Positions 2,942 to 62,705 of a stretch of DNA of 64,000 nt are shown here, piece after piece. How positions within the stretch are numbered: position 1 is the first letter of the stretch; every line of letters begins with the position of its first letter. The DNA is from Odontesthes bonariensis (Eukaryota > Chordata > Actinopteri > Atheriniformes > Atherinopsidae), in contig NC_134515.1 of assembly GCF_027942865.1 (NCBI RefSeq), positions 9,043,339 through 9,107,338 on the forward strand, in the 5' to 3' direction. The notes beneath the pieces are model-generated. The model was not told where the DNA came from. It saw nothing but the letters and a program-made list of their open reading frames with translations, and searched no databases. A program made the translations under genes and the position numbers.

Positions 2942-5900
2942 CTGTTAAAGAGAAAAGCGGGTAAACTTCAGCCAGTCTGGTTGCTGCAGATGTTGGCAGT
3001 TAGTATTTCAGTGTGAAAAAGACTGATTGAAATTGGTTCAAAACTTTCCATCACTTTGGTTAAGGACTCCTCCGCTCGTGTTGTTTTTTCTTGGGCCGGC
3101 AACAACGAAGCCGGGACGGGTCAGGGGCAGAACCTCATTCTCTTGGTCAACATCATCGTAATTAAAAGAGGAGCTGCCACGTATTTCTCTTTCCTTTATG
3201 AATTCAGATTCTGATCTGAATCCTGCGTAAACATCAACAACAAAACAGTTTTTTTGTTGGTCCTACATTAGAAATCAGTACCAAAGAGTCTTAAAGGGAT
3301 AGTTCGCCTCTTTTGATACGAAGCTGTATGACATCCCATATTAGCAACATCATTTATGAACATTTTCTTACCCCCTGCTGCGTCCTGTGAGCCGAGTTCC
3401 AGCCTCGTTTTGGTGTTGACGAAGGTAGTCCGGCTAGTTGGCTGGGGCCACAAAAATAAAGCGTTTTGCTTCTCAAAACAATATGCGTTCAAAAGAGTAA
3501 TACATTTGCATCACAAAATCGTTCTCCAGGAAAAAGTCAGCCCTCACAATCGCTTGGCGCTATTTTTGCCTCCCTTCATATCACTGCGTGCTGCGGCCTG
3601 CCGACAGCTGCACCTGTTACGGTGTTTGCTGCTCGGAAGCAGGGGAGTGCTCGGTCTGCACGGTTTACACAGCAGGCAGTGATACGAAGGGAGAGAAAAT
3701 AGGGCCAAGCGATTGTGAGGTCTGACTTTTTCTGGATGAACGATTTTGTAATGCAAATGTATTACTCTGTTGAACGCATATTGTTTTGAGAAGCAAAACG
3801 CTTTATTTTTTAAACCCCAGCCAACTACCTTCATCAACGCCAAAACGAGGCTGGAACTCGGCTCACAGGACGCAGCAGGGAGTAAGAAAATGTTCATAAA
3901 TGATATTGCTAATAGGGGATGTCACACAGCTTCATGTCAAAAGAGGCGAACTATCCCTTTAAAACTACCGACCTCGCAATGACAGTAACATTGATAATGC
4001 ACAACTAGGGAATAACATTAATAAATTAACAAGCTCTGAAACTTACTGCCACGGCTGAAGTCTTCCATTTCGTTTGATTTGTTCATGATATCTTCATAGT
4101 TTCCACTTTCAAACTCATCCTCTGTCCCTGGCAGCATTCTCGCTACATTAAGATGACATCAGAAATTTACCTGCACAGTTTATGACGACAACAGTCTTGC
4201 AGTACACTGATGTTGGCCTGATGGTTGGCGGAACTGATCCACTGATGTACTGGTTGTTTCTAAGCAGTGATGGACTTATTTTTTAAAGAATCATGATCAG
4301 CATAAAGCAGTCTGAATTGAGGCAGCATGCAGAAAGATTGCCCTCTTGTGGCAAAAAAAGAGAAAAGCCTCTCCATACCCTTCATTCTTAAAACATATAT
4401 CATAAGGATGAACGATAGACGATTTTATGCTTGGAGTAAGTGGGAAAAGTAGTTTTCCAGTGCAATTAATTAAAAGTGAAACAAGCTATTGGTCTAAATT
4501 TATATTGCAGCTGTTTAAATAAATGTACTCACTTGGCAGTCTGCCTTCCCCTGCTCTTCTAAAGTAGGATCGCACAAATACAGCAACCACTATCAACACT
4601 ATGAGAACAGTTCCTACTCCAATGATAATAAGGGCCCAACGAGGTGATGTTTTTTTTCCTGGTGGTGGTGTTGGTTTTTTGTAGCCTGAAAACCAATACA
4701 TTGTATTGAGAACATGATTAGATAAATCTGGTTTATCCATGCAATCAATGAAATCAAATAAGGTCATAATTACAAAATACAAAAAGCCATTTCCTGTGCA
4801 AAACAAGAAAGTAACATTTTGGGGGAGTATTTTTGGGTTTGGTTACCTTTGCAGTAGATGGCAGCTGGAGACTCTGGACTGTTACAGGACTGTTCTTTGA
4901 CACAGTATCTGACATCATTACCATCAAGGGGGCATATCAGGCTTGATTGTAAGACCTTAATGAAATTGAAACATATTAAATACACAGTTTTTCATGCAAC
5001 CACACAAAACAACAGAGAAATCCGACTGATACTGAAAAATGAGGGCTGACTAAAGGAAACATTTGTTGTACGGAAATCAAGAGTCATGCTGTTCTGATAA
5101 CTATTTCAGCAGTTATTTTTGCAACATAGCCTCCAGAGAAAGCTTTGCCAGCTAATGTCCTATATCTATTATGTTGGATCAAAGCTGAGACATTTCCATA
5201 ACTTATTTTAAAGTGAATGTGCTAAAGCACAGCACCTGAAAAGTTTCCCAAATGCTTAAAGGGACATGAAAAAATGTGGATATAAAGGTGTACCTCCTTG
5301 GGACCTGACAGGGTTTGAAGTTCCTCGTTCTTCCTTGAAGAACAACCAATCATTTCACAGATTTGGTCCTTTGCTTTGTTGGAAAGATTGATGTTCGAGG
5401 AGCACACTTTTTCCCATTTATTTCGATACTTGACTTTAATTGCACCGCCACACTTTTCTGTAGTGTTAAATTGGACATTTTCTGTGAAAATAGTGAAACA
5501 TTTAGAGAAAACTGTATTAAAAATCAGACATTTCAGGAAACATACAAAGCAGGAGGCTGTTAGCTTCAGAAGATATAGGAAACAGCTAACACACATTATG
5601 TGTACATGTCATTTTCCTTTAACTATTCATGAATAATCCAAATACTTATTATTATGGAGTTTGGTGGAGCTGGTGAGTCAGTTTTTAAACTTTGGCTAGT
5701 CTGCTTGGCTTGTTGGTTCACCAGTTTTTATGCTAAGCTAAGTTAGCTTAAGCCCATCCAGTCAAATTCTATCCTCCTTTGAGAAAAAAAAATCCTCAAT
5801 AATTGACTTTAAGTTCTCATATATTTATTGTTTAAAATTTAAATTGCATTTATACAGATTTCTTTTCTCCTTATTTCAGATCAACGTGAATCAAAGCCAA

Positions 5901-8900
5901 CGGTTACTACTTCCGGTACTTTTTAAACGGCTCTGCGTAAAACCAGAGAGTCTCTGGGTAAAACGTAATGCGCTGTTAATTATTCGTTTCAACCAATAAC
6001 AATCTTTGTTGAGTTAACGTCCTAAGACGTGTGCTGCTATTGGCTGTTATGAAAAGCGTTACTAGTGTATTTCCGGACGACCAAGCGACGCACTAACATC
6101 TTTATATTTTAATATGCGATAGTTCGTCAATGTTGCTCCAGTTTACAGGTTGCTGGGAGTGTAAAGTATTTGATATTGTCAAAAAATGTAAATTGCCGGG
6201 TTTTTCCCAAGAGACTAAAGTGGAGGAGCCGACACGCGCTTATCCTCAGCTGACCCAGGACTCACACCTGTTAATGGCATTGCTGCCAAGAGCTTCACCT
6301 CCCAAAACCGTCCTATCTTCTCGTCTTCAAGTTATTATAATGACTTTACATGGATTACAAACAGCACAGCGACGGATGACAGTGTATTTGTTCAAATTTT
6401 GCGAACAAACTCCGGTTTTCTCACGGAACATTGATTCGTAAGAGATGGAAAGGGTTGCAGATGAGGCCACTGACCAAAGGGAACTAAGTGGAAACATTCA
6501 AGCTGATTTCGAACTTTGTTCAAAAAGAGGAAAATGAGCCGCAGTTGCTTCCATGCAACGCCACACCGGAGAATCCTGTCTGCTAACGGGATGTTCCTTA
6601 AAGAGAGTCCTGGAAATCCTGGAGCCGCTGGAGTTGGACCCACCTGTGTGAGGGGGATTTCTGTGCAGGTTCTTCTGAAGCAAAGGTAGGACTCAAATGG
6701 TTTAGTTTAGCTGAAGTGGAATAGTCCGGCTGCTGAGTGCCCTGCTGTGAGGTTCTGAATGTTTCATGTGTGTTGAAACATGTTGGAAAAGTTTGGGTCA
6801 ATGTTGTTGACGCTGGTGCTGTTGTGTTCACAGCTTCTGGTTTATGTGAATGTGTCTTTTTGTCTTATTTGAGGGGAGTCTTTGTTTTGTTTTTTTGGTT
6901 GTACTTTCCTTGGCTAAATATCTGAGCTAAATAACCGTGCCAACCTATTTGGGTCCATCTTGGCCGTGTTGAAGTTTAATTTCGGAACTTTAAGGTGTCT
7001 TTGAACTGCAGATTGATAAAACATGGTCTGTCTCTGTAAATCTTCTATCATGGCATTGTTTTTCAGTCCCAGCTTCTACACACCTGGCTCAAATGAATGG
7101 GTCACCATTTGTGCACAACTTGTTCACAGGCTGCTGATGAGACCCAGTTATTTGAATCAGGTGTGTTGGAGCAGAGAAACTTCTGAACCGGAGGAATAGG
7201 AAATGGAAATCCTGTTTCTATGAAGTGCTTGTTCATACTTTGACTGTAGTTTTTTTGATGGAGTAACTGTGGATTTGTTCATTTATTTATTTAGAAGTGT
7301 TACTGGACACAAAAAAACCTAAATGTAGAACATTTTTAAGTATTATGCTATCATTTCTTCCCTGGTTTCACCACTTCTCCCAGCGAGAGTTGACAAGAGT
7401 GACATCAATTTTATGATCAAAATGTTGTCAAATCAAATCTGTGTAGCACAAAGTGCTATACATGTTTAAAAGCAGCCCCCCACCCTGCCCCACCCCAGCA
7501 CATACACACAAACAGACATCTGCACACACACATTTAAAAAAATATATATATTTATAAAAAAATAAAATAAACTTCGAAACGTGTGTCAACAACTAGCAGG
7601 ACACAGCAAAACGTCCAAGTTGAAGGGAATTACAGTGAATTCACAATTTTTTTATTTTTTTTATTTTCAGGAAACTGAAATAATTGTTAACTTTTAATAG
7701 TGATTTAAAACCAATTCAGACCAATTTTCTTGACTATTTCAAAGAAAAAGGAGTTCCTTAAACACGCAGGAGGATTGGCTGGAGAGAAGGATGCAAACAT
7801 ACTCACCAATACAGGAGATGGACACCGAACCTTTGGCACAGGGTCCTTTAACTCTCTCGCATTGACCCAGTTTGTAATGGTGGTCATCGCACCTAACATG
7901 GTACATCTCTTCACTCCTAGTTGGTGGACTTTGCAAGAGCTCAACTATGGCGTTGCTGCAGTTCTTTTCTTGGCAAACCATGTGTGCATACTCGATGTTC
8001 CAGTGGTCAGCGCACACTTTAACATCATTTATTTTCACTTCTCCTTGACAGTTTCCTGTAAGAGAGACACGGGGGCGATCTAGGAAGGAAAGCATCGCAG
8101 TGGAAAGATTAAATATTGAGGGAAAGAAAAAAGAAATGGTTCTTTTTTTGTTTGTTTTGTACTTTCTGTAAAACTCCAAACTTTGGAAATTATTTTGTTA
8201 CTTCTGTCGTAGTTTCAGTCAATAACTAATTGTCAGTCAGTTGTTATCTGGCAAGATTTTGAGATGGAAAATGTTTGTTTAGCTAATCTAAAGCAGATAA
8301 ACTAGCTCAAGGTTTCATATGTTTGATAACAATATATAACATGTTCATCAAATTCTGATCATGTCAGCAAGTCTGCATGTTTATGTGAATATGTAAAAGC
8401 CTTCTAATGACCAAGAAATGATTAGTTTTGATTTGGTTGTGCTAATGTAATCATTTGAGGCTAATCTGTCAGAGAAGAATCTTACCTTCACATTCAATTG
8501 TGAGCGTCTGATTCCTTGAATGTGTGGTTGGCGTTTTACTTTCACAGTCCCAGATGCTTGTTGCTCTGGCCTTACAGCTGAAATCATTGTTCCAGAGAGG
8601 TGGATCTTCATTTTCTCTCCACTGATTTCCACTTATTGACACGAAGTTGCCACAGTCGATGTCCTGACAAAGCCTCGTCCCCTCTTTTTCTGTCCAGCCT
8701 TGCTTGGAGATGGCGCTTACTTTTTCCTTGGAGTGAACAACCACTCTTCCTTTACAGACGCTTTCCAACGCCATCTTTCTCAAATCTAAGACGAGCAGGG
8801 ACAAATGAGTGCGTTAGTAAATTAAAACTCTTTAAACGTTATCAAAGTGAGCTCAGGGATGTAGAGTATGTGTTGTGTGCATAATACCAATAATTAGCAC

Positions 8901-11900
8901 GTTTTTAAACGCTTTTTTGTTTTTAATTTTTACAGAGCTAGATAAGAAAATACCTAATTTAATATTAGATACTTGGATATAGCCAGTGCCCGTTAGCTTG
9001 GCACAAAAACTGTGTCAACAACTTGTACTTTGAATGTAATTCTGCAACCTCTCTTCAAAGGTGCTTTTCAGTTGCTTGTCTACATGTTAAAGCATGTTGC
9101 TTCCACAGTCTCACAGTCTGAGGTGTGGGTTGCCCTTGGTTGTGTCGGCAATGTTGTTGGTCTTTAGCTTTGCCCTGCTTTAGGAAAGTAAAGTGGACAA
9201 AGATCTGCTTTATTATAGTAAAAATAACTATACTCTTTTGGGTGCTTCATCTTTCATGTGATTAAATTAGTTGTGGGACCCTCCCAGATTGAGCTAACTT
9301 TCAATTAATCAGCAGTCAACCTATGCATAATGTCATGTCTGAAGGTTATACCCTGGGAGGTTTATGAAGGACCGCACAAAAGCCTGTCTGTTTATTTTTT
9401 ATTTATTTATTTTTAAATGACCAAAGTTATTTACTGGGGACAGTGAAAGTGACGCAGGCAGATATCTTTGTGCAGTCATAATCGGGGCCCTTCAGTTAGA
9501 GGCGCTGGTGTCATGCCACATATTTCTGGCTGCATATGGTGCATGTTAAGTTAAACCAGGTAAAAATGACAATTTAACTGAAATGGTACAAAACTCTATA
9601 ACCTTTGATGTGCCTTGACATGAGATGCATAGAAATTTGACATTTGTTTTTATGTGGAAATGGTTGTTATGGAGTTCAAGTAAGGAGGTAGTTTGCTTGT
9701 AGGACCCAGAATCTGAAGGCACCGTTAGCAGACACGTTGTTGCTGGTGTCGATCCCAATCCTCTGACCAATATCAAAATAAAGGATTTTTTTTTTTTTTT
9801 TAATTGGAATCTCCTATTCTATAGTGGTTTTGAATATTCGAATAAATACATTTTGTTCTGATTAATCTTGCCATCTAGAACCATTACTTTTGCTTGGTGG
9901 TGCAGGGACAATTTAAGAAAACATTTAGACATAATTAGTTTGAGACGAAGTGATTTCACAGACCGGAGCATTGGAGGCCTATTAAAGCGCTGGTTTGCGT
10001 TTGGCTCCTCTGAACGTCAACGTTACAAGCTGCTAATGAAGCGGCATCTTCAGAACAAGTTAGTTCTGTGACTTCTTTCACTGTCGATGGAGGTCCAACG
10101 TAGTCCAGAGTCTTGATGGCGTTTCCACATTTCAGCTCCTTACAGGTGGTGTTTTGACTTTTACCGTCTTTGATTTGCACGGGGATCCACTCGCCCTCAT
10201 ATTCTACCTCAACAATTCCAGAACATTTGTCTCGGGAAACCTTAAATCTGGGCTTGACACTAGCTGCAACAAAACAGACAAACAAACAAGAAACAAACGT
10301 GAGGCGCAGGAGTTGAATGAATATTAACAAACTCAATTTCTGGACATGAGCGTACACCAATGCTCGGATTATTATCAGCCAATTTATACACACATTTGGT
10401 TTCACTCATTCATAAAAACAAAAAAAGAGGAAAAATATAAACGTAATCAAATAGTTGAAATCTTTATGAATTTGGAAACAATGGAAATTAATAAGGAAAA
10501 ATACAGCAGCCACCAACTCTTTTTATTACTAGACTCTCGACCAGCTCAGCCTGTGATTGGCCAATATTTTACGTATTTTGTAGTCAGTAAATGCCTCGTA
10601 TGCAAAGCACTGAGAAATCTTTTATTCCTTTGCAGCGACAGCAGACGCCTGCTGTCTGCAGTTGTTCATAACAACCTAAAGGTACCAAGTCTTCCGTTTT
10701 CATTGTTCCCTACACTTTAATTTCAAGGCTTGTTTTGGATACACCTTTAAAAGGATGAAGGACCTCTTAAGGGGTTTATACAGTAACAGATATCTACTTG
10801 GAGGGCTTTACTTTTTGGATTTCTAGCGAGAGAAAACCCTGCAGCCCTGGGGTCTGTTTCACAAAGCAGGTTCAACAAACTCTGAGTTGATCTACTCTGA
10901 GATAGAAAACTCTGAGTTTTCGGTTCCAGAAACGCTCATTTGAGGGAGTTTAGTGCTAAAACATCTATGTAGATGCAGTCTGATAACCATCTCCTTACGA
11001 ATATTTAATTCTCTGTGCAATAATGCTGCACCTTCATAAAAGGATGAAGGACCTCATCTGGTTAATTAAGGGGTTCATCCACGGGATCGTTGTCAAAAGG
11101 ACATGCCATATTTAAAAAAAAAAAAAAGTCGCCTCCTACTGTTCCTAATGGACTTCTAGTAGAAGAACTCGCTCTGCTGACTGAATGAATGAGGAAATCA
11201 GATGGCGTGTGTGGCTGAAAGAGGGCAGAGACGGAGAGAAACTTGAGGTTTCTTGAGTAAAATTTGGTCCCGACCAGGTTAGGTTCAGAGAGTCTGTTAC
11301 TACGGTAACCGACCGAGAGGTTAAGTTACCTCTCTTTGTGAAACAGGCTAGACTAACTTACCCCTCTTTCTCGGGGTTGAGTTACCTCCCTTTGTGAAAC
11401 GGAAAACTCAGTTTCCCTCATTTCAGGGTTAACAAACTCAGTTTTCACCAAACCTGCTTTGTGAAACGGACCTCTGGTGCACTGTTGGAGAAAATGTTTT
11501 CCAGTTGAATGTTCAATTAAAATAGAAACTAAACAAGAAAAATACAAAAATGACCTTGTGTATGGTTGCTTGTAGTTCTTACAGTACTGGCCAAGCTGAG
11601 ACAACAGAAACATATTGGCTGTGTTCGAAACCGCATACTTCTCCTACTACTCATACTGACTTTTTTCCCGGATGCATACTAGATTCGCCGAAATGTTGGG
11701 TATGCATCATGAGGTTACTACTCGTACTCAAACTACCCAAGATGCAATGTAATGTGACATCACCGATCATCATTTCCTGTCAAAACGGCAGTTTCAAGCT
11801 AGCTACAACGAGGGTAGATTCACTTCCTGCTTTCAAAACAAAAGCACTAATTGTATCGTAATGCCTTTCCCTATGATAAAAGGCAACGGGTATTTTATTT

Positions 11901-14900
11901 TATGAAAATAACCGGAAGTGCGTTGCTCACTGCGGCTAGCTTTAGCAGCGCCGTATTCGTGGGAACAAAATTGTAAACAGCCGGTATTTTGTTAGGTTTT
12001 CAACACGTTGGGGATCTAAACGACTACTTTCACACCTGAAAATGTTTCAAATGTTGCTAAAGTTTACAGAGTTTAGAGCTTAAGTGAAAACAGCTTCAGG
12101 CCGGCTGATTTTGGCACGGGCAGGAGCGAAATGCATTGTGGGTAAACGTCTGCATACTGTCTGATCGATGAGTATGTGGTTTCGAACACAGCCCTTGTTT
12201 TTGGAATAAATAGATAGAAAAATCAGTCCATTACCTGCACACACAACATATGCTGGACTACACGTGTTGTCCCCGTCCTCGTTCTTCACCAGGTTGCACT
12301 GGCTCAGGTCAGTCGTATGGTCGGTGGAGTGTAAACTCTTGAATGCAATATTATATGGACCTTTTGGACTTTTGTAGGCCGGCAGGGCTTTATCTCCACA
12401 GCCCAGGCTTTTGCACAGCATTGAAGACTTCTTAGTCGTCCACGTGTCTGCGCACACATGTCCACACTGTCCATCTGTGCAGATCTTCACCGTTCCCCAG
12501 CATTTTTTGGTGAGCGTTATGTTGACTTTTCCTGTTTGGCCGTCCAAAAATCAAACGGTTAAAAGAACAAGGAACTTAATTCGAGCATCGCATCAGCAGA
12601 ATAGTGATGAACTTGTCTCACATTACCTGAACACGTCACATGGGCAACAGTGTGGTTTGATGGCCGTGGTATTTTTTTGCAGTCGAACAAAGACTTTGTG
12701 GTAGATGAGCATTCATAAGATTCCTTCCAAATCTTTTTCTTCCCGTCAGTATTGTTTACATTGTTATAATTGAGGACATTCCCACAGTGCATCTGCTGAC
12801 ACACTGTGTTTGCAGACTCATTGTTCCACGTTTTGTTGGACCCAGAGAGCCAATAGGTTGTGCCGTTTCTCTCTATCCCCACGGGCCCAGAACAGAATCC
12901 ATCCAGAAAAACCACTTTGTGCTCTGCATGGAAAAAAAAGAAAGAGGTGTGCAGTAGGTGTTAGGATTGTGGTAGACCAGCAGCTTCATTCAGACTGAAT
13001 TTTATTTAAAGGAGAAGTTAGTTTTTTTTTTTTTTTTTTTAAACCTGGACCTTATTTCTGGCATAAAATACCTTCATCTGCTCACCGATAACAGTTTGGT
13101 GAAAGTCTGCGTCCTTCGGAAGATATTTAGATCACTGGAGATCAGTGTATATCCATATAACGGGAGAGAACACGGCAGATAGGGGTGGGCGATATGGGCA
13201 AAAAAAATCTCTATTTTTTTAGGATTTTCACGATAAAGATATTTTGACGATATTTAACAAAAAAATTAAAACTTGCGTTAAGATCACAATAAAATGAACA
13301 CAAGCATGCAAGTCTAAGCACACACGGCCGGTACAGTGAAACTGAATGGCTCATTAAATCAGTTATGGTTCCTTTGATCGCTCTACCGTTATTTGGATGA
13401 CTGGTGCAATTCTAGAGCTAATACATGCAAAACGAGCGCTGACCTTCGGGGATGCGTGCATTTATGAGACCCAAAACCCATGCGGGTGCCTCTCGGGTTG
13501 CCCCGGCCGCTTTGGTGACTAGATAACCTCGAGCCATTTCTCAGGCTACTTCTCCCTCCGGAGAGGGAGCCTGAGAAACGGCTACCACATCCAAGGAAGG
13601 CAGCAGGCGCGCAAATTACCCACTCCCGACTCGGGGAGGTAGTGACGAAAAACAACAATACAGGACTCTTTAAAGCTGCGGTCGGCAACTTTTTTTTAGT
13701 CATATTAGCTTGAACTGTCATGGGATTCTGGAAGTAGAATATTAAATAGGCTGTTTAGGAAAAATAACGAAATCTGTAGCTCCCTCTGAAGCCTGTAATC
13801 ATGCTTGCAAAAATCGAGCGCTCCCGGCTGTTTTTAACCAATCAAGTTAGGCTGGAGGAATCCTACCTGTCAATCACAGCTTGTGCACACGCTGCTGAGC
13901 GTGAGTCTGCCCCAGCTTGCGTGCGCTCACACTGGTGTGAACTCACGTGCACAACCTCGTCCACAGAGGGGGAGGGGTTTGGGGGGCGATTCGGGGCTTG
14001 GTAGAGGTTGGGGGAGGGACCTGAAAGTTGTACTCTCGGCGCCGTGGTAAGGACAGAGGACTACTGGCGCCGCATATTGCAAAATTACTCATCGTCAAAA
14101 CAACATTCACAATAATTTCACAAACGATACATATCGCCCACCCCTAACGGCAGAGCCTATAAATAAGGCGTTATCTGTCTTTATTTCACCAATACTTTAA
14201 GACGAATTAATGAATAAATGAATGAATGAAAGTGTACTATTGCACTGTTAGCTCAGAGCTGCCGTGTTGTTGTTATCGGGGGCTTTCTACACACGTCTAC
14301 CGGGATGACGTCATCAACGCGCGCCGCTGCAGCACAGCTCATTCGCTCTGTGCTCTGTGACAGTCGGCTAACTTCACACAGAAGTGCTACTGCTAGCTTT
14401 GTGCAACATGGCCGAATATTTATCAGACTTTGACGACGTGGACGGCGACTTTGAGGACGATGGATAACTGTTATCGGTGAGTAGATGAACATATTTTATG
14501 CCAGGGGAAAAAAAAAAAAAACTTCCCCTTTTAACATGTTCTCCCCATATTTATAACCGTCTGCTAAATCATTAAAGCTTTTGGTTTAGCTCATCTTCTG
14601 CTGAGATATCCTGTGAGAAGTAAAGAAAACCCCAATAAGGAAACCAGAAGCAAAACCATTTCATTTGTATTGTTTAAGTTATTTTTGTCCTGAGCTCAAA
14701 GATGCATCAAGAAAACTCTCCACTGTTAATAATTCACTTCAAAAAGTGCAGAACTCTTAAGCTCATTGTGGGCAGATGTAGTTTTGCAACTTAAAATTGT
14801 GGATGCTGTTCTGCTGGATAGTATGAATTAACGTTAAGTTCCTGGAATATTTATCAGGACACATTTGATCTAGATGTTTACTTTTAGTTTAAGGATTCAA

Positions 14901-20900: not shown

Positions 20901-23576
20901 ATAAGTAGGTTTTTAGCCTAGATGTGAAGAGGCCCAGGTCAGAAATAAGACTCAGCTGGACGGGGAGCTTATTCCAGAGCCTGGGGGCAGCTTTGGGAAA
21001 AGGCTCGCTCACCCCAGGGTTTGTATTCTGACCTGGGCACTTCCAGCAGAAACTGATCTGTTGACCTCAGAGCTCTACCAGGACTGTTAAAAGCTCAGAT
21101 AAATATGATGGGGCGAGGCCGTTAAGAGCTTTAAAAACAAACATTAAAAGTTTAAAATCAGTTCTATAAAGGAGAGGAAGCCACTGGAGGGAGTTAAGAA
21201 CAGGAGTGATGTGCACACGTCTGTTGGTGTTGGTTAAAAGACGGGCAACCACAGCGGACTTCATGATTGTCTGCTCACTTTTAATACCGTGACTTACTTT
21301 GCATGAGAACACCCAAATGGAATAAAAGCAGAAAGACCTACTTGAACATTTGATCTTTTTCACTGTTTGCTTTTGGTAAAAGCTGGCGCCTGGACCGGGC
21401 CAGCCGGGACACTCCCACAGGTCCTTTTCCTCCCCGACACACTTGAGTTCGTTGAGCCAGACTTTGTCCATGGTGGGCCTGTAGACGTCCTTGGAGTCGC
21501 CCACCGGCCTCCCGCAGTGAGTGCTCCTGCAGACCACTTCCTCGGTGTCCTTGCTCCAGAATTTATCACCCACGTAGCCCCGTTTGTTGTTGTAGTAAAC
21601 TTCAACATACCCCTCACAGGGGTCGTCTCGACTGCGTAGGATGACCCTTCCTTTATCTGCTTACAGAGTAGTGGGTTTAATTTCTCTCCAAACTATTGAA
21701 TTTATCACAGATCAACGCAAAGTTCTGAAACCAAAACAGTTTGGACACATTTGCTCTCATTTGGATGCTAGGTGTGTTTAAACCTAATTAATGTGTTTCC
21801 ACGTGTGACTAATTCACGCTGTGGTCCAGCTGCGAACAATAATTTCTACCAAAAGATGTCCAAACTCTTCCCCGATACCAATCCAAATAATTTAAGATGA
21901 TCTGTCGCTCCAGAGTCTTTTCCCACCACGAGTTACTGAGGTCCATTAGTTACTGTGAAAGCCGACCGGTGGCTATGCACAGCCTGCACAACGGGTGTTC
22001 TTTGGTTGAATTGGAAATGATTTGACACGTACTGTAACAGCCTTTTTACGTGTTTTAATAAGAGGGAGCTTGACCTTCTTCAGGTGGTTCAGAGCTCTGC
22101 TGCGAGGCTTTTAACTCCCACAGATAAAAGACGGCATCTCTACACTGGCTGCTGGTTAATTGAACGGTTTTGGTGCCTACTTTTAGAGCTTTGCCTGCTC
22201 AAGCTCCTTCTGATATCTCCGATGGGATTCACCTCCGTGCTCCCACCCGTGCTCTGGGGTTGCTAGTGGCTCCAACTGTTAGAAGTGTCACACGGTGAGA
22301 TCAAGTTGGGTTTTTGTCTGGTCTCCATGTTTTGTCATTTCCTGTTTTATTTTGAAGAGTAACTCTCCTCTTGTTTCAGGCCACTTGCCCTTCCTCATGT
22401 GTCACCCGTTGGAGCGTCTTCCCTGATTCCTGATTGTGTCCACCTGTTTCCCATTTGCCCTCATGTGTCTTATAGTCTGCGTCTCCCTTTGTCTTGTGCC
22501 TGAGTGTTTCGTTTTGTCGTTCACCCGAGCCTGCCACAGTCACAGTGAACCTGCTCGTTCGTATACTAAGCCACGATTCCTTGACTCCTTGCGAGTGATT
22601 TTTGTTTGTAAATTTTGTAATCTAGTCTTAAGTTTTCATAGCCATTTTTAGCCTCCTTTAGGAGTGATTTTTTTGTTTTAGATAATGTTTCAAAGATTGT
22701 GTGGAGCCTTCGGTTTTTAGGAGTGCATTTAGTCGTTTTTGTTTCTAGTACGAAGTTGTTTTCCCTCCTTAGGGAGGGATTTTTGGTTTATAGTTCATAG
22801 TTAATTGCCCTCCTCTTAGCAGAGATAGTTTTGGTTGTTTTTTCCTCTTTTATTTATTAAGTTTTATATCATATATAGAATTACATTTTCATAGCTGATT
22901 ATTGGTTGGAATTATCTAATAAAATCTGCCTAATTGGATTCTCTGCATCTGAGTCCTCTTTCAAGCCCAGGTCTGACGAGAAGTTTTTGAGGTTTGGATT
23001 GTTTTAGCTTATAGAAAACATGCTCTCCTCCCGTCTCCCTGAGTTAGCTCAGCGCCCACATCAGAATTTCCTCCCTGCACACACGCATTTCACAGTAGCT
23101 TCAGGACGGCTCTAGTTTTTCCACTGTAAAATATTCACGCACAGCACTGTTGACGAACTCCCCCCTTCAGGGAAGCTGTTTTATGGCGCCACGGACATAA
23201 ATCATCACGCATTGGGCGTTGGGGTATAACCATGATGCAGATCAATCGAAAAAGAAAGTCTTCATCATGATATTCGTACATATTGAGGTTAGTTGAAGAG
23301 AAAGAAGCGCCTTTCATGGTTTATTCCATAAATCGTTTCCTTTAGTGGGTTTAAATGCGTTTAAATAAGTATTCCAGCTACCTGTACCCCTGATTATGAA
23401 TGAATATTTATCTCTGAACATTGTCCTTGTGAAAAGAAATCATAGAAAAATCATCTTTTTTATCAAATTAAAGAATATTATTAAAATATTTATAAATTAA
23501 AATGCAACCAAATGGTTTTACACCATTAAATATGGTGTAAAACCATTTTGAAGTAATATTCAAGTGAACAGAAACG

Positions 23577-29328: not shown

Positions 29329-29355
29329 ATGCCCTCCAAAACAAAATGGTCTGAG

Positions 29356-32300
29356 TCCGTCTTAAATGAGTCCGTCTTAAATGAGTCCGTCTTAAATGAG
29401 TCCGTCTTAAATGAGTCCGTCTTAAATGAGTCCGTCTTAAATGAGTCCGTCTTTACTGAGTCCGTCTTAAATGAGTCCGTCTTTAATGAGTCCGTCTTTA
29501 ATGAGTCCGTCTTTACTGAGTCTGTCTTTAATGAGTCCGTCTTAAATGAGTCCGTCTTTACTGAGTCCGTCTTAAATGAGTCCGTCTTTACTGAGTCCGT
29601 CTTTACTGAGTCCGTCTTTACTGAGTCCGTCTTTACTGAGTCCGTCTTAAATGAGTCCGTCTTAAATGAGTCCGTCTTAAATGAGTCCGTCTTTACTGAG
29701 TCCGTCTTTACTGAGTCCGTCTTTACTGAGTCCGTCTTTAATGAGCCCGTCTTTACTGAGTCCGTCTTAAATGAGTCCGTCTTAAATGAGTCCGTCTTAA
29801 ATGAGTCCGTCTTTACTGAGTCCGTCTTAAATGAGTCCGTCTTAAATGAGTCCGTCTTTAATGAGTCCGTCTTTACTGAGTCCGTCTTTACTGAGTCCGT
29901 CTTTAATGAGCCCGTCTTTACTGAGTCCGTCTTAAATGAGTCCGTCTTTAATGAGTCCGTCTTTAATGAGCCCGTCTTTACTGAGTCCGTCTTAAATGAG
30001 TCCGTCTTAAATGAGTCCGTCTTAAATGAGTCCGTCTTTACTGAGTCCGTCTTTACTGAGTCCGTCTTTACTGAGTCCGTCTTTAATGAGCCCGTCTTTA
30101 CTGAGTCCGTCTTTACTGAGTCCGTCTTAAATGAGTCCGTCTTTACTGAGTCCGTCTTTACTGAGTCCGTCTTTACTGAGTCCGTCTTAAATGAGTCCGT
30201 CTTTACTGAGTCCGTCTTTACTGAGCCCGTCTTAAATGAGTCCGTCTTAAATGAGTCCGTCTTAAATGAGTCCGTCTTAAATGAGTCCGTCTTTACTGAG
30301 TCCGTCTTTACTGAGTCCGTCTTTACTGAGTCCGTCTTTACTGAGTCCGTCTTTACTGAGTCCGTCTTTACTGAGTCCGTCTTTACTGAGTCCGTCTTTA
30401 CTGAGTCCGTCTTTAATGAGCCCGTCTTTACTGAGTCCGTCTTAAATGAGTCCGTCTTAAATGAGTCCGTCTTTACTGAGTCCGTCTTTACTGAGTCCGT
30501 CTTTACTGAGCCCGTCTTTACTGAGTCCGTCTTTACTGAGTCCGTCTTTACTGAGCCCGTCTTTACTGAGTCCGTCTTTACTGAGTCCGTCTTTACTGAG
30601 TCCGTCTTTACTGAGCCCGTCTTTACTGAGTCCGTCTTAAATGAGTCCGTCTTTACTGAGTCCGTCTTTACTGAGTCCGTCTTTACTGAGTCCGTCTTTA
30701 CTGAGTCCGTCTTTACTGAGTCCGTCTTTACTGAGTCCGTCTTTACTGAGTCCGTCTTAAATGAGTCCGTCTTTACTGAGTCCGTCTTTACTGAGTCCGT
30801 CTTAAATGAGTCCGTCTTTACTGAGTCCGTCTTTACTGAGTCCGTCTTTACTGAGTCCGTCTTAAATGAGTCCGTCTTTAATGAGTCCGTCTTTACTGAG
30901 TCCGTCTTTACTGAGTCCGTCTTAAATGAGTCCGTCTTAAATGAGTCCGTCTTAAATGAGTCCGTCTTTACTGAGTCCGTCTTTACTGAGTCCGTCTTTA
31001 CTGAGTCCGTCTTAAATGAGTCCGTCTTTACTGAGTCCGTCTTAAATGAGTCCGTCTTAAATGAGTCCGTCTTTACTGAGTCCGTCTTTAGTGAGTCCGT
31101 CTTTACTGAGTCCGTCTTTACTGAGTCCGTCTTTACTGAGTCCGTCTTAAATGAGTCCGTCTTTACTGAGTCCGTCTTTACTGAGTCCGTCTTAAATGAG
31201 TCCGTCTTAAATGAGTCCGTCTTAAATGAGTCCGTCTTAAATGAGTCCGTCTTTAATGAGTCCGTCTTTACTGAGTCCGTCTTTACTGAGTCCGTCTTTA
31301 ATGAGCCCGTCTTTACTGAGTCCGTCTTAAATGAGTCCGTCTTAAATGAGTCCGTCTTTAATGAGTCCGTCTTTACTGAGTCCGTCTTAAATGAGTCCGT
31401 CTTAAATGAGTCCGTCTTAAATGAGTCCGTCTTAAATGAGTCCGTCTTTACTGAGTCCGTCTTTACTGAGTCCGTCTTTAATGAGCCCGTCTTAAATGAG
31501 TCCGTCTTAAATGAGTCCGTCTTTACTGAGTCCGTCTTTACTGAGTCCGTCTTTACTGAGTCCGTCTTAAATGAGTCCGTCTTAAATGAGTCCGTCTTTA
31601 CTGAGTCCGTCTTTAATGAGTCCGTCTTAAATGAGTCCGTCTTTACTGAGTCCGTCTTTACTGAGTCCGTCTTTACTGAGTCCGTCTTAAATGAGTCCGT
31701 CTTAAATGAGTCCGTCTTTACTGAGTCCGTCTTTAATGAGTCCGTCTTAAATGAGTCCGTCTTTAATGAGTCCGTCTTTAATGAGCCCGTCTTTACTGAG
31801 TCCATCTTAAATGAGTCCGTCTTAAATGAGTCCGTCTTAAATGAGTCCGTCTTAAATGAGTCCGTCTTTACTGAGTCCGTCTTTACTGAGTCCGTCTTTA
31901 ATGAGCCCGTCTTTACTGAGTCTGTCTTAAATGAGTCCGTCTTTAATGAGCCCGTCTTAAATGAGTCCGTCTTAAATGAGTCCGTCTTAAATGAGTCCGT
32001 CTTTACTGAGTCCGTCTTTACTGAGTCCGTCTTTACTGAGTCCGTCTTAAATGAGTCCGTCTTAAATGAGTCCGTCTTTACTGAGTCCGTCTTTAATGAG
32101 TCCGTCTTAAATGAGTCCGTCTTTAATGAGTCCGTCTTTAATGAGCCCGTCTTTACTGAGTCCATCTTAAATGAGTCCGTCTTAAATGAGTCCGTCTTAA
32201 ATGAGTCCGTCTTAAATGAGTCCGTCTTTACTGAGTCCGTCTTTACTGAGTCCGTCTTTACTGAGTCCGTCTTTAATGAGCCCGTCTTTACTGAGTCTGT

Positions 32301-32922
32301 CTTAAATGAGTCCGTCTTAAATGAGTCCGTCTTAAATGAGTCCGTCTTAAATGAGTCCGTCTTAAATGAGTCCGTCTTTACTGAGTCCGTCTTTACTGAG
32401 TCCGTCTTTACTGAGTCCGTCTTAAATGAGTCCGTCTTTACTGAGTCCGTCTTTACTGAGTCCGTCTTAAATGAGTCCGTCTTTACTGAGTCCGTCTTTA
32501 CTGAGTCCGTCTTTACTGAGTCCGTCTTAAATGAGTCCGTCTTTACTGAGTCCGTCTTTACTGAGTCCGTCTTAAATGAGTCCGTCTTTACTGAGTCCGT
32601 CTTAAATGAGTCCGTCTTTACTGAGTCCGTCTTTACTGAGTCCGTCTTTACTGAGTCCGTCTTTACTGAGTCCGTCTTTACTGAGTCCGTCTTTACTGAG
32701 TCCGTCTTTACTGAGTCCGTCTTAAATGAGTCCGTCTTAAATGAGTCCGTCTTAAATGAGTCCGTCTTTAATGAGTCCGTCTTTACTGAGTCCGTCTTTA
32801 CTGAGTCCGTCTTAAATGAGTCCGTCTTTACTGAGTCCGTCTTTACTGAGCCCGTCTTTACTGAGCCCGTCTTTACTGAGCCCGTCTTTACTGAGTCCGT
32901 CTTTACTGAGCCCGTCTTAAAG
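29356..32922. repeat. 15-bp minisatellite array, about 237 units
   Basis: Tandem units of TCCGTCTTWAMTGAG, all exactly 15 bp, with variation almost confined to three sites: T/C at position 1, T/A at position 9 and A/C at position 11. The three main forms encode SVLNE, SVFTE and SVFNE on the plus strand. The minus strand reads KTDSF/KTDSV/KTDSL. Because 15 is a multiple of 3 and no unit contains a stop in those frames, both strands stay open: plus from ATG 29329 to stop 32965-32967, minus for 952 codons. I treat it as non-coding satellite: no promoter, splice signal or non-repeat domain is visible. A block near 31621-31890 is duplicated exactly 360 bp later. Confidence 0.95.
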
Positions 32923-57387: not shown

Positions 57388-59456
57388 TGTTTAAATTTGA
57401 TTTAAGAGCTTTATTTTAGTGAAAGGTTTGGTGAGCCTGTTTAAAAGAAAATCTGTGAAAGTTAAAATATTAAAACAATAGTTTTATATGACTAAAGTGC
57501 AGTTGTATTTGGGTTGAACATGCCTAAAGAAAATAAAACGTGTTTAATTGTAAGATCTGTGATGGCCTTGATTAGTACTCGTATCGCCTACTTGTACTCG
57601 GTTTAAAAAAAAAAAAAAAAAAGTGGTACCGGTGCATCCCGAGTGCTAATGTGGTCTCTAAAGTTATCAAACTTACGTAATAATAAGATTTATCCTAAAA
57701 AGCAGTAACTTCTATTCAAAAAGTGTCAGATTCTCCTTTTGTCTCATCAGTTTTGGGGCCCGGGTTCATCTGGATGGTGCAGAACATTATCACTTAACTG
57801 ATGTGGTGCGGACGCCTTTCAGCAACAAAAACCTTTGAGTTTGACTCGCCATGAATGCATTAAGTGAAACCGGTTTGCCTTCCATAGGAGCTTCGCACTT
57901 CTTCACAGCCCTTCAGAGTAAACTAAAGCTGTAGTTTCAGCTCTGGGAATCCTGGACTCATGAAAGACGTGAGGTCGATGGTGTCCTGATGTTTGGATGC
58001 AGAGCTGCCAACTAAAGGGCCGAAGAAGCGTGAGGCTCTGTGTTGGTGCAGACTTCATACAACCCTCGCAACGGTTTTATTTCTAGTTGTTCTATGTAAT
58101 CAGGACGTAAGAGTTTGGCTGTAATTTAAAGGGAACTTAAAGCTACTGCAGCTCTAATGGAAACGTTAATATTTTTTAAGTTTAGCAGCAAATCGTCTGA
58201 AGGAGTTGGACTGAAACCCAGAATTCTTCATTCTTTGCTGCACCACAAACCAGTGAATCTGTGACTGTTACAGAGGAGCTGCTGACCGGGTCTTTGTGTG
58301 ATATTTCAAAAATACTCCCAGTGATGGAGGGAAAGGGCTGCCGGAGCCGGTCAGAAACACCTGCCGGGTCACACAAAGCTTCTCCTCAGCACAGTTTAAC
58401 CTCTGCAGCAGAAGTCTCTCCTCCGAGTATCAAATGCTCAGGAAAAGATTTATAGGAGCTGTTAGCAAAGTGAAACACCGTCCTGCACGTATATAACGCT
58501 GTCAAAGCACTCCGAGCGCAGAACTGTCTTACCAATGATCTATAGAGCCATCTTCACTTTAGCTGGCTTTGTTAAAAATCAAACTTCTCCAGCATCACAG
58601 TAAAATGTCTCATATTAATCATACTAGTCAGAGTAATTTACCAGAGTTTTTGGCCTTTCTGCGACCAGTGGATGGGATTTCTGTGAGGTTGTCAGCGCTT
58701 AGTGTCTTTTTTTGGTCTTTGTTAGAGGGTGTGCAGCCCCCTCACCACGAGGCTGAAGCTTCACCGACACACCGAGCCGTTGTTGTTGGCTCGTGTTTGC
58801 GTTCCTTTTCCTTAAAATACTGCAACGCAGAAAAGAGACTCTGCAAGGATCGGCAGATCTATGACATCAGTAAAACTGCATGTGACCACAGTGACCAAAC
58901 GTGTTTACAATCTATGACTCGGTTTAGTTTCACAGGAGCAGACGAGCCGCAGTCGTAGCTGTGAAGCGTAGTTACATTTCTGAGGTGCGTGAGGACACTG
59001 CAGACCTCTGAGAACTGTTGAGATGATTTAAGCTGCTAAATCAAGCCTCATTTTCTACTGTTTTCTGCATATGGTACAGCCCATGTGTTGTGTGGGTGAA
59101 GGATTAGACGTAAGTAACAGCTTGTAACACCTGTTACATGACCCATAGTGTTTAATAGATTAGAAAAATCATTGAAAAACTTCACTATCCCGGAACTCAT
59201 CTGACACATCTGTGGTGTGTCAGATGAGATGTGTCAGAATTAGCATGTTAAGGGTCTGAAAAGACTAAAAGCTAACAAACATAACTCTAAGGGCTTGTTT
59301 TATGACATCCTGGAGCAGGGAACCCACCGTCTCCTTTTAAGGCAACAGCTATGAATGTTTAAAACTCAAATTTCCACATTTGTTTGGTTTGTTTTTGGGT
59401 GGGAGGGTTTCCTGAACATCTCTAACATATATCCAGGTAGGCAGAAACCACACTAT
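55711..59456. other. Intergenic, no gene recognised
   Basis: Holds a TG microsatellite (56700-56724), an ATT microsatellite (57358-57387) and a perfect 13-bp hairpin near 59197-59229. No supported coding region. Confidence 0.45.
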
Positions 59457-60075
59457 GGCTGTGTTCGAAACTGCATACTTCTCCTACTACTCCTACTAAC
59501 TTTTTGAGTTGGTATGCCAGTTTGAGTAAGAAGTTCCCGGATGCATACTAGATTCGCTGAAATGTTGGGTATGCATCATGAGGTTACTACTCATACTCAA
59601 ACTACCCAAGATGCCACGTAACGTGACGTCGCCGATCGTCATTTCCTGTCAAATCGGCAGTTTCAAGCTAGCTACAACGAGGGTAGGTTCACTTCCTGTT
59701 TTCAAAACAAAAGCACCAATTGTACCGTAATGGCTTTCTCTATGATAAAAGGCAACGGATATTTTATTTTTGTGAAAATAACCGGAAGTGCGTTGCTCAC
59801 TGCGGCTAGCTTTAGTAGCGCCGAATTCGTGGGAACAAAATTGTAAATAGCCGGTATTTTGTCAGATTTTCAACACGTTGGGGATCTAAACGACTACTTT
59901 CTCACCAGAAAATGTTTCAAACGTTGCTAAAGTTTACAGAGTTTAGAGCTTAAGCGAAATCGGCTTCAGGCCGGCTGATTCCGGCTCGGGCAGGAGCAAA
60001 ATGCATTGTGGGTAAACACTCTGCATACTGTCTGATCGATGAGTATGCGTGCGGTATGTGGTTTCGAACACAGCC
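59457..60075. mobile_element. MITE, copy B of the family at 11617
   Basis: Begins GGCTGTGTTCGAAACTGCAT and ends TGTGGTTTCGAACACAGCC. It is collinear with copy A, with about 30 extra bases near the left end (TTTTTGAGTTGGTATGCCAG...) and about 10 near the right. Confidence 0.85.
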
Positions 60076-62529: not shown

Positions 62530-62705
62530 TGCACTGAAAGCTAACGCGCACCGAAAGCTAACGTGCACCGAAAGCTAACGTGCACCGAAAGCTAACGTGC
62601 ACCGAAAGCTAACGCGCACCGAAAGCTAACGCGCACCGAAAGCTAACGCGCACCGGAAAGCTAACAGGCACCGAAAGCTAACGCGCACGGAAAGCTAACG
62701 CGCAC
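62530..62705. repeat. 17-bp tandem repeat, about 10 units
   Basis: Units of GCACCGAAAGCTAACGY run head to tail. CpG and TpG variants alternate (CGCGCACC against CGTGCACC), and one unit has an inserted G. Confidence 0.9.

Follow-up and report, generated by a model that had tools for sequence, protein, structure and literature searches.

Part of the 18S rRNA gene of Odontesthes bonariensis very probably travels inside a hAT-type transposon, non-autonomous and about 945 bp long, which is found in at least 117 places in the genome and was likely spread by a hAT transposase encoded elsewhere. Because this carrier sits in more than 100 places, 18S sequence has likely been scattered over the chromosomes by a borrowed enzyme. 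Nearly all copies that were read had the same ends, the same 18S breakpoints and the same internal scars; their target site duplications (TSDs) were different, and their divergence was low.

The copy that served as the query lies in a stretch of 64,000 nucleotides (the window), and its features are listed in Table 1. The original prediction, made from the letters of the window, described an 18S fragment between intact hAT inverted repeats, bordered by an exact 8-bp target duplication, in an element of 967 bp, and each of these points was borne out. The Rfam model SSU_rRNA_eukarya matched the plus strand at 13299-13647 with 156.5 bits (gathering score, 50; E-value, 5.1e-43), and the two 18S pieces of the window were identical to the native 18S of the same genome at 222/230 and 113/115 aligned bases (gaps not counted). 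The native reference (L068) is the start of an rDNA unit on contig C119, with the ETS and 18S nt 1-907. It appears to hold a few single-base errors as judged against a second rDNA-type unit (L063) and against the usual 18S sequence. The terminal inverted repeat (TIR) was perfect over 16 bp, with an exact match on the plus strand at the left end and on the minus strand at 14131-14146. When up to three mismatches were allowed, two matches were found in 0 of 100 shuffled sequences.

Table 1. Features of the window copy and its host element (positions in the window), and loci of the long copies (positions in the contigs)
Feature	Position	Strand	Basis or remark
Left target site duplication ACGGCAGA	13172..13179	.	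Exact match to 14147-14154
Whole non-autonomous hAT-type element, 967 bp	13180..14146	+	Both TIRs exact, TSD 8/8, copy family
Left terminal inverted repeat TAGGGGTGGGCGATAT	13180..13195	+	Same 16-mer in 43/44 TSD-bearing copies
5' hAT arm, ending at the 18S junction	13180..13304	+	39/40 scored arms adjoin 18S
18S rRNA nt 49-285, first cargo part	13305..13536	+	Native alignment, Rfam, 117 exact junctions
Inverted copy of 18S nt 427-404, replacing nt 286-400	13532..13555	-	Scar in 55/56 copies
18S rRNA nt 401 to about 516	13557..13671	+	113/115 to native; standard copies reach nt 801
Remnant of nested TTAA-target MITE inside the 18S cargo	13669..14032	+	Comparison with L010
3' hAT arm and right TIR	14038..14146	+	Exact 22-bp right end at 141 genome places
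Right target site duplication ACGGCAGA	14147..14154	.	Exact match to left duplication
Older host element, ends TTTAAAGG...CCTTTTAA	13005..14534	.	Inverted arms; not part of the rRNA carrier
Long-copy locus L086	C16:35411990-35415400		
Long-copy locus L087	C17:8715300-8718900		
Long-copy locus L088	C17:8720060-8720300		

The window copy differs from the usual form of the element. Its interior at 13669-14032 is not hAT sequence and consists of the remnant of another MITE. One further copy (L010) shares the insertion point, keeps both 18S halves and holds between them the nested MITE with both of its ends (TTTAAAGCGGCAGTAGGCAA and TTGCCTACTGCAGCTTTAAA). In the window copy, only the first part of this MITE is left, and the second 18S half is gone. 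Comparison of the two sequences suggests that the window copy likely derives from an earlier form of the element: a TTAA-type MITE entered the 18S, and the remaining cargo was then deleted. The 18S piece first recognized in the window was shorter than the usual cargo because this copy had lost the 3' part of the MITE together with the second 18S half.

The hAT element is itself surrounded by an older TTAA-type element with inverted arms at 13005-13096 and 14466-14534. Comparison with an empty site was imperfect: a relative of the host element (L031, C23:25071023-25074528) lacks a hAT at the site of the window copy, yet carries 9 extra bases exactly there. Another copy of the 18S carrier was observed in this relative, at a site different from that in the window. 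Close to the right end of this TTAA-type element, a short frame beginning with ATGGCCGAATATTTATCAGACTTTGACGAC was noted on the plus strand (14408-14467), and its start was found in the L031 relative as well; the frame may represent the beginning of a coding gene that has been lost.

The window's own genome (945 Mb in 187 contigs) was searched with window positions 13000-14000, and 40 of 4009 first-look candidates were scored. Nearly all of the scored candidates matched query positions 181-675, that is, from the left end of the element to one common point in the 18S, at 93-96% identity. Among the 39 places other than the window, 38 matched from query position 164-181 to 675 or 678, and in the remaining one (C12:21631787) the match extended to position 1001. 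The test set comprised the window and 57 other loci, which included these 39 places plus more. Repeat fetches (L002-L005, L007-L009, L048, L049, L053, L059, L060 and L072), a phage contig (L001) and rDNA loci (L061-L064, L066 and L068-L071) were left out. Two of the 58 (L065 and L067), with rDNA-type or other partial 18S, were set aside, leaving 56 transposon copies.

Both ends were present in 50 of the 56 copies, and 44 of these 50 had a TSD that matched at 7 or more of 8 bases (8/8 in 41). The window's left 16-mer was present in 43 and its right 16-mer in 42 of the 44 TSD-bearing copies. The 44 copies had 43 distinct duplications, indicating independent insertions; the sole repeated duplication belonged to two loci (L013 and L073) that also had a flank in common. 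In the other 12 copies, an end pair or a clear duplication was lacking (six with both ends and no TSD; six, including L010, without the end pair). Identical flanks were also observed at three loci on one chromosome (L041, L042 and L043, at C13:28.65, 27.86 and 23.89 Mb). These identical flanks and the flank common to L013 and L073 indicate that some copies spread with their surroundings.

By exact pattern, the 26-bp junction between hAT and 18S occurred at 117 places genome-wide and the 22-bp right end at 141 places, with no match to the reversed pattern in either case. The 100 junctions listed of these 117 were spread over many chromosomes. A hand count on C1-C4 gave 28 right ends and 21 junctions, of which 17 were in common within 1.7 kb. 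Capture-recapture calculation from these numbers yielded about 35 copies on C1-C4 and about 174 (roughly 175) genome-wide, a rough figure because independent decay of the two marks is assumed.

The consensus carrier was 944 bp long (939 bp when built from 39 full copies). Its 129-bp 5' arm is followed by 18S nt 49-285, by nt 427-404 in inverted orientation (24 nt), by nt 401-801, and finally by a 3' arm that is about 190 bp long and contains a variable A/T tract. The usual cargo (18S nt 49-801) is longer than that of the window copy, and its part from nt 401 to 801 is short of about 31 nt near 515-550. The breakpoint at nt 49 was found in 56/56 copies and the 3' breakpoint of the 18S was kept in 50/56, whereas native nt 286-317 and 521-545 were kept in 0/56. 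The inverted scar was present in 55/56 at the threshold used, with the remaining copy (L080) just under the cut. Since breakpoints and scars were common to nearly all copies, the scars likely predate the spread. Carrier lineages were split by smaller differences, namely a lost CTA, three forms of the 31-nt deletion and the base at nt 63 (T or C). Beginning at nt 653, in V4, 148 of 149 bases were identical between the carrier and the native 18S, this genome's own 18S being the one compared.

These data bear on the two alternatives of the original prediction, a passive capture of the 18S piece or a dispersed rRNA-bearing family, whose copies would share their 18S breakpoints and differ in their TSDs. 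Within the window's own genome, the second was borne out: the nt-49 breakpoint was shared by every copy read (56/56), and the TSDs were distinct (43 in 44 copies). The outcomes named against such a family were a piece unique to this locus or boundaries that differ in every copy; instead, the 18S piece was found at many loci and with boundaries in common. Because the breakpoints are shared and the target duplications differ, a dispersed family is preferred to a one-off capture.

The inverted scar was compared with the native sequence base by base. The inverted copy matched nt 427-404 at 22 of 24 bases, and in the window it overlaps the preceding 18S by AGCC(G/A). At the switch point, AGCCG (nt 281-285) is the complement of nt 427-423, a microhomology of 5 bp; two positions picked at random would share 5 or more bases with a probability of about 0.001, as computed post hoc. 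Because AGCCG is shared by both points, copying could jump strands at the scar.

The 18S cargo adjoined each of the 39 scored 5' arms that were examined (40 were scored, including C26:33391887). Among copies with no listed exact match to an 18S 56-mer nearby, 18S was still found in 8/8 picked by the 5' arm and in 5/5 picked by the right end. No cargo-free sibling or parent was found among these 5' arms (39/40) and the 5 right ends checked. In one copy of the right-end set (L082), nothing but the two cargo ends was left, and another copy (L023, 564 bp) was without the second cargo half and had a target duplication, although the loss may postdate the insertion.

The 39 full copies diverged from the consensus by 1.49% on average (range, 0.80-2.71%) and from each other by a pairwise mean of 2.58% (A/T tract left out). 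The closest pair (L027 and L028) was 0.36% apart, and its target duplications differed. The carrier copies are young and their movement is recent, as seen in a sample that is biased: most of the copies read either scored highest against the window query or matched 18S exactly, so that divergence is biased low. At non-CpG sites, the two arms of the 39 copies diverged by 0.95% and 0.84%, and the two 18S parts by 1.12% and 1.51%. At CpG sites, divergence reached 5.2% (20/382) and 3.9% (30/770) for the arms, against 2.1% (23/1119) and 3.2% (69/2150) for the 18S parts.

The idea that the cargo is under selection or evolves in concert was rejected at non-CpG sites, where no sign of it was found; CpG sites diverged less in the cargo. 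Since the non-CpG divergence of the cargo was not below that of the arms, the cargo is no more constrained at these sites, and the similar values, as far as sequence comparison can tell, give no clear sign of homogenization with rDNA. The lower CpG divergence of the cargo could come from lower methylation, although the numbers are small and the copies related; a pure passenger need not show such a pattern.

The explanation that we favor is that the 18S was captured once from the rDNA of the lineage itself (the rDNA of its own genome being the only source compared). Copying of a hAT element would have switched template into the rDNA, and the inverted replacement of nt 286-400 at the 5-bp microhomology may be a trace of such switching. 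The resulting chimera would have retained both ends and been amplified by a helper transposase, with the 18S as a passenger; no function of the 18S piece would be needed. An alternative, which we regard as unlikely, is that the cargo came from 18S RNA, a reverse-transcribed piece having entered a hAT MITE before the composite was amplified. In line with this, the cargo begins inside mature 18S (nt 49) with no spacer, the inverted snap-back could also come from reverse transcription, and an A/T tract is present in the 3' arm, although tens of bases past the end of the 18S. The missing spacer is weak evidence either way because both ends of the cargo are within the 18S, and spacer is expected from neither source. 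Moreover, the consensus has no tail directly at the 3' junction of the 18S, and a retro-type duplication was not noticed at its 18S borders. Just as unlikely is a composite origin, in which two hAT copies around an 18S segment in an rDNA unit moved by their outer ends and an internal deletion followed. The colinear 18S block is indeed flanked by hAT sequence on both sides, but there is a single arm per side, inner terminal repeats are absent from the consensus, and the consensus arms matched only an A/T tract in the four rDNA stretches compared (L068-L071), which are few.

Other readings do not share the premise of a mobile family or of a passive cargo. Identical flanks at L041-L043 on one chromosome and the shared flank of L013 and L073 would fit a single chimera spread by segmental duplication, or an assembly artefact; this reading is contradicted by the distinct TSDs (43 in 44 copies) and by the wide spread of the junctions (117, with the 100 listed on many chromosomes), and we give it almost no credence. 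It is also highly improbable, though less so, that the 18S was kept as a helpful cargo, for example through nucleolar targeting or shielding from small-RNA silencing. The linkage of 5' arm and 18S (39/40), with no cargo-free sibling seen, would agree with such a benefit, as would CpG divergence lower in the 18S than in the arms, which lower methylation could give. A founder effect, however, accounts for the linkage, and non-CpG divergence is not lower in the 18S (1.1-1.5%) than in the arms (0.8-1.0%). Half-cargo copies such as the 564-bp L023 still have a TSD, with the reservation that the loss may postdate insertion. By the same measure, there is very little probability that the cargo lies behind the carrier's success and made it dominant in its hAT family, whether because it could not be silenced without harm to the ribosome or because it is drawn to the nucleolus. 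If that were true, the carrier would evade small-RNA silencing and methylation by wearing 18S.

Two long copies, on C16 and C17 (Table 1), had about 4.7 and 5.9 kb between the junction and the right end. One and the same hAT transposase gene is present in both, oriented like the carrier. Its frame, with DUF4371 and hAT dimerization domains, was open over 724 aa in L087 and incomplete in L086. On C17, the 18S of the long copy stops at element position 476, after which a hAT with other ends starts. From this border, an autonomous 18S-bearing hAT was rejected for now, as the C17 transposase belongs to a different hAT nested in the 18S. No helper transposase with the ends of the carrier was found; the gene of the two long copies is, in C17, that of the nested hAT. 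Calculated by hand from the coordinates, the shared block lies at an offset of about 1260 bp in either long copy, provided that the insertion in C16 was at the same point. Because the offsets are equal under this assumption, the nested composite of C16 and C17 was probably moved or duplicated as one unit.

The carrier was compared with known systems by their marks. An 8-bp TSD was exact in 41 of 50 both-ended copies, and the short TIRs begin with TAGGGGTGG, a start that we take to be of hAT type, and are perfect over 16 bp. Host sequence lies inside the TIRs and has a parental copy elsewhere (the native rDNA, L068), and the same chimera recurs with shared breakpoints and distinct TSDs (43/44). 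The marks of an rRNA-derived SINE or retropseudogene (no TIRs, a poly(A) or simple tail, and variable duplications) did not fit, as TIRs and 8-bp TSDs are present. Dispersed families with rRNA sequence are known among SINEs, such as the 5S-derived SINE3 and the 28S-derived SINEs, which are retroposons without TIRs. The carrier is likewise dispersed and contains rRNA sequence, but it has TIRs and 8-bp TSDs. By the marks tested, the closest known kind is Pack-TIR/Pack-hAT.

According to the main text of Tan et al. (2021; PMC8277862), 208 of 370 animal Pack-TIRs are hAT, and host-sequence-capturing transposons of animals are nearly always single copy. Multicopy cases in reference genomes number 4 (1.4%), including a frog example on three chromosomes, and the fly Ssk-FB4 has four copies (PMC8277862). 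Microhomology template switching is the model published there for multicopy Pack-TIRs, and the word "rRNA" is absent from the main text of that study. The carrier resembles a Pack-TIR/Pack-hAT in having host sequence between hAT TIRs, a parental copy elsewhere and different TSDs. Unlike the animal cases described in that text, it has an 18S rDNA cargo, at least 117 junctions and far more copies, well over 100 against nearly always a single one (PMC8277862). Pokey, a piggyBac transposon of Daphnia, inserts into rDNA (PMC3849761 and PMC4912750). Both are rDNA-linked DNA transposons, whereas the carrier takes rDNA sequence out into the chromosomes.

Among the top-ranked titles in the open-access literature, no 18S-bearing hAT family was found, and PMC4110674, PMC10186657 and PMC7599744, in the sections available, are not about such an element. 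Transposon libraries may hold an unnamed entry for the carrier. The 18S patterns and the MITE pattern had no match in viral and prokaryote collections; a match of the TIR pattern on a phage-like contig (L001) was rejected as chance. When proteins were searched with a frame across the inverted scar, the scar motif was found in 0 of the best 120 of 127 matches, and about 20 matches inspected read as ordinary 18S frames. This search says little because the database holds few fish.

The dispersed copies would likely have practical effects. One 18S 56-mer had 81 exact matches, 69 of them outside the six contigs in which rDNA-type 18S was observed, and all 12 that were read of these 69 were transposon copies. 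Work with 18S in this species (mapping, FISH, barcode primers and rRNA filtering) would therefore likely meet carrier copies. The carrier also offers a natural experiment on capture and its scars, and on sequence exchange between chromosomal 18S and rDNA. Separately, seven rDNA-type units (L061-L066 and L070, on contigs C33, C34, C8 and C122) matched 18S at model positions 42-435 in seven of seven cases; L063 has spacer and 18S to about nt 420 and then jumps to other sequence. These short-18S units are either truncated rDNA units or an rDNA-derived array.

The element in the window lies beside SRCR-domain exons on the minus strand. Six SRCR-domain frames were observed on that strand among ten frames scanned (5222-12960 and 21067-21660), and they likely represent one or more CD163/CD5-like genes. 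For one of these exons, the nearest solved relatives by sequence were CD163, PIT54, CD5L and CD6. Elsewhere in the window, a 15-bp tandem array of about 238 copies (29351-32918) has frames of 1232 and 1210 aa, with both strands open. A 17-bp tandem repeat of about 10 copies was noted at 62531-62705, and a dispersed repeat was present in two copies that are 87% identical (11616-12193 and 59456-60075).
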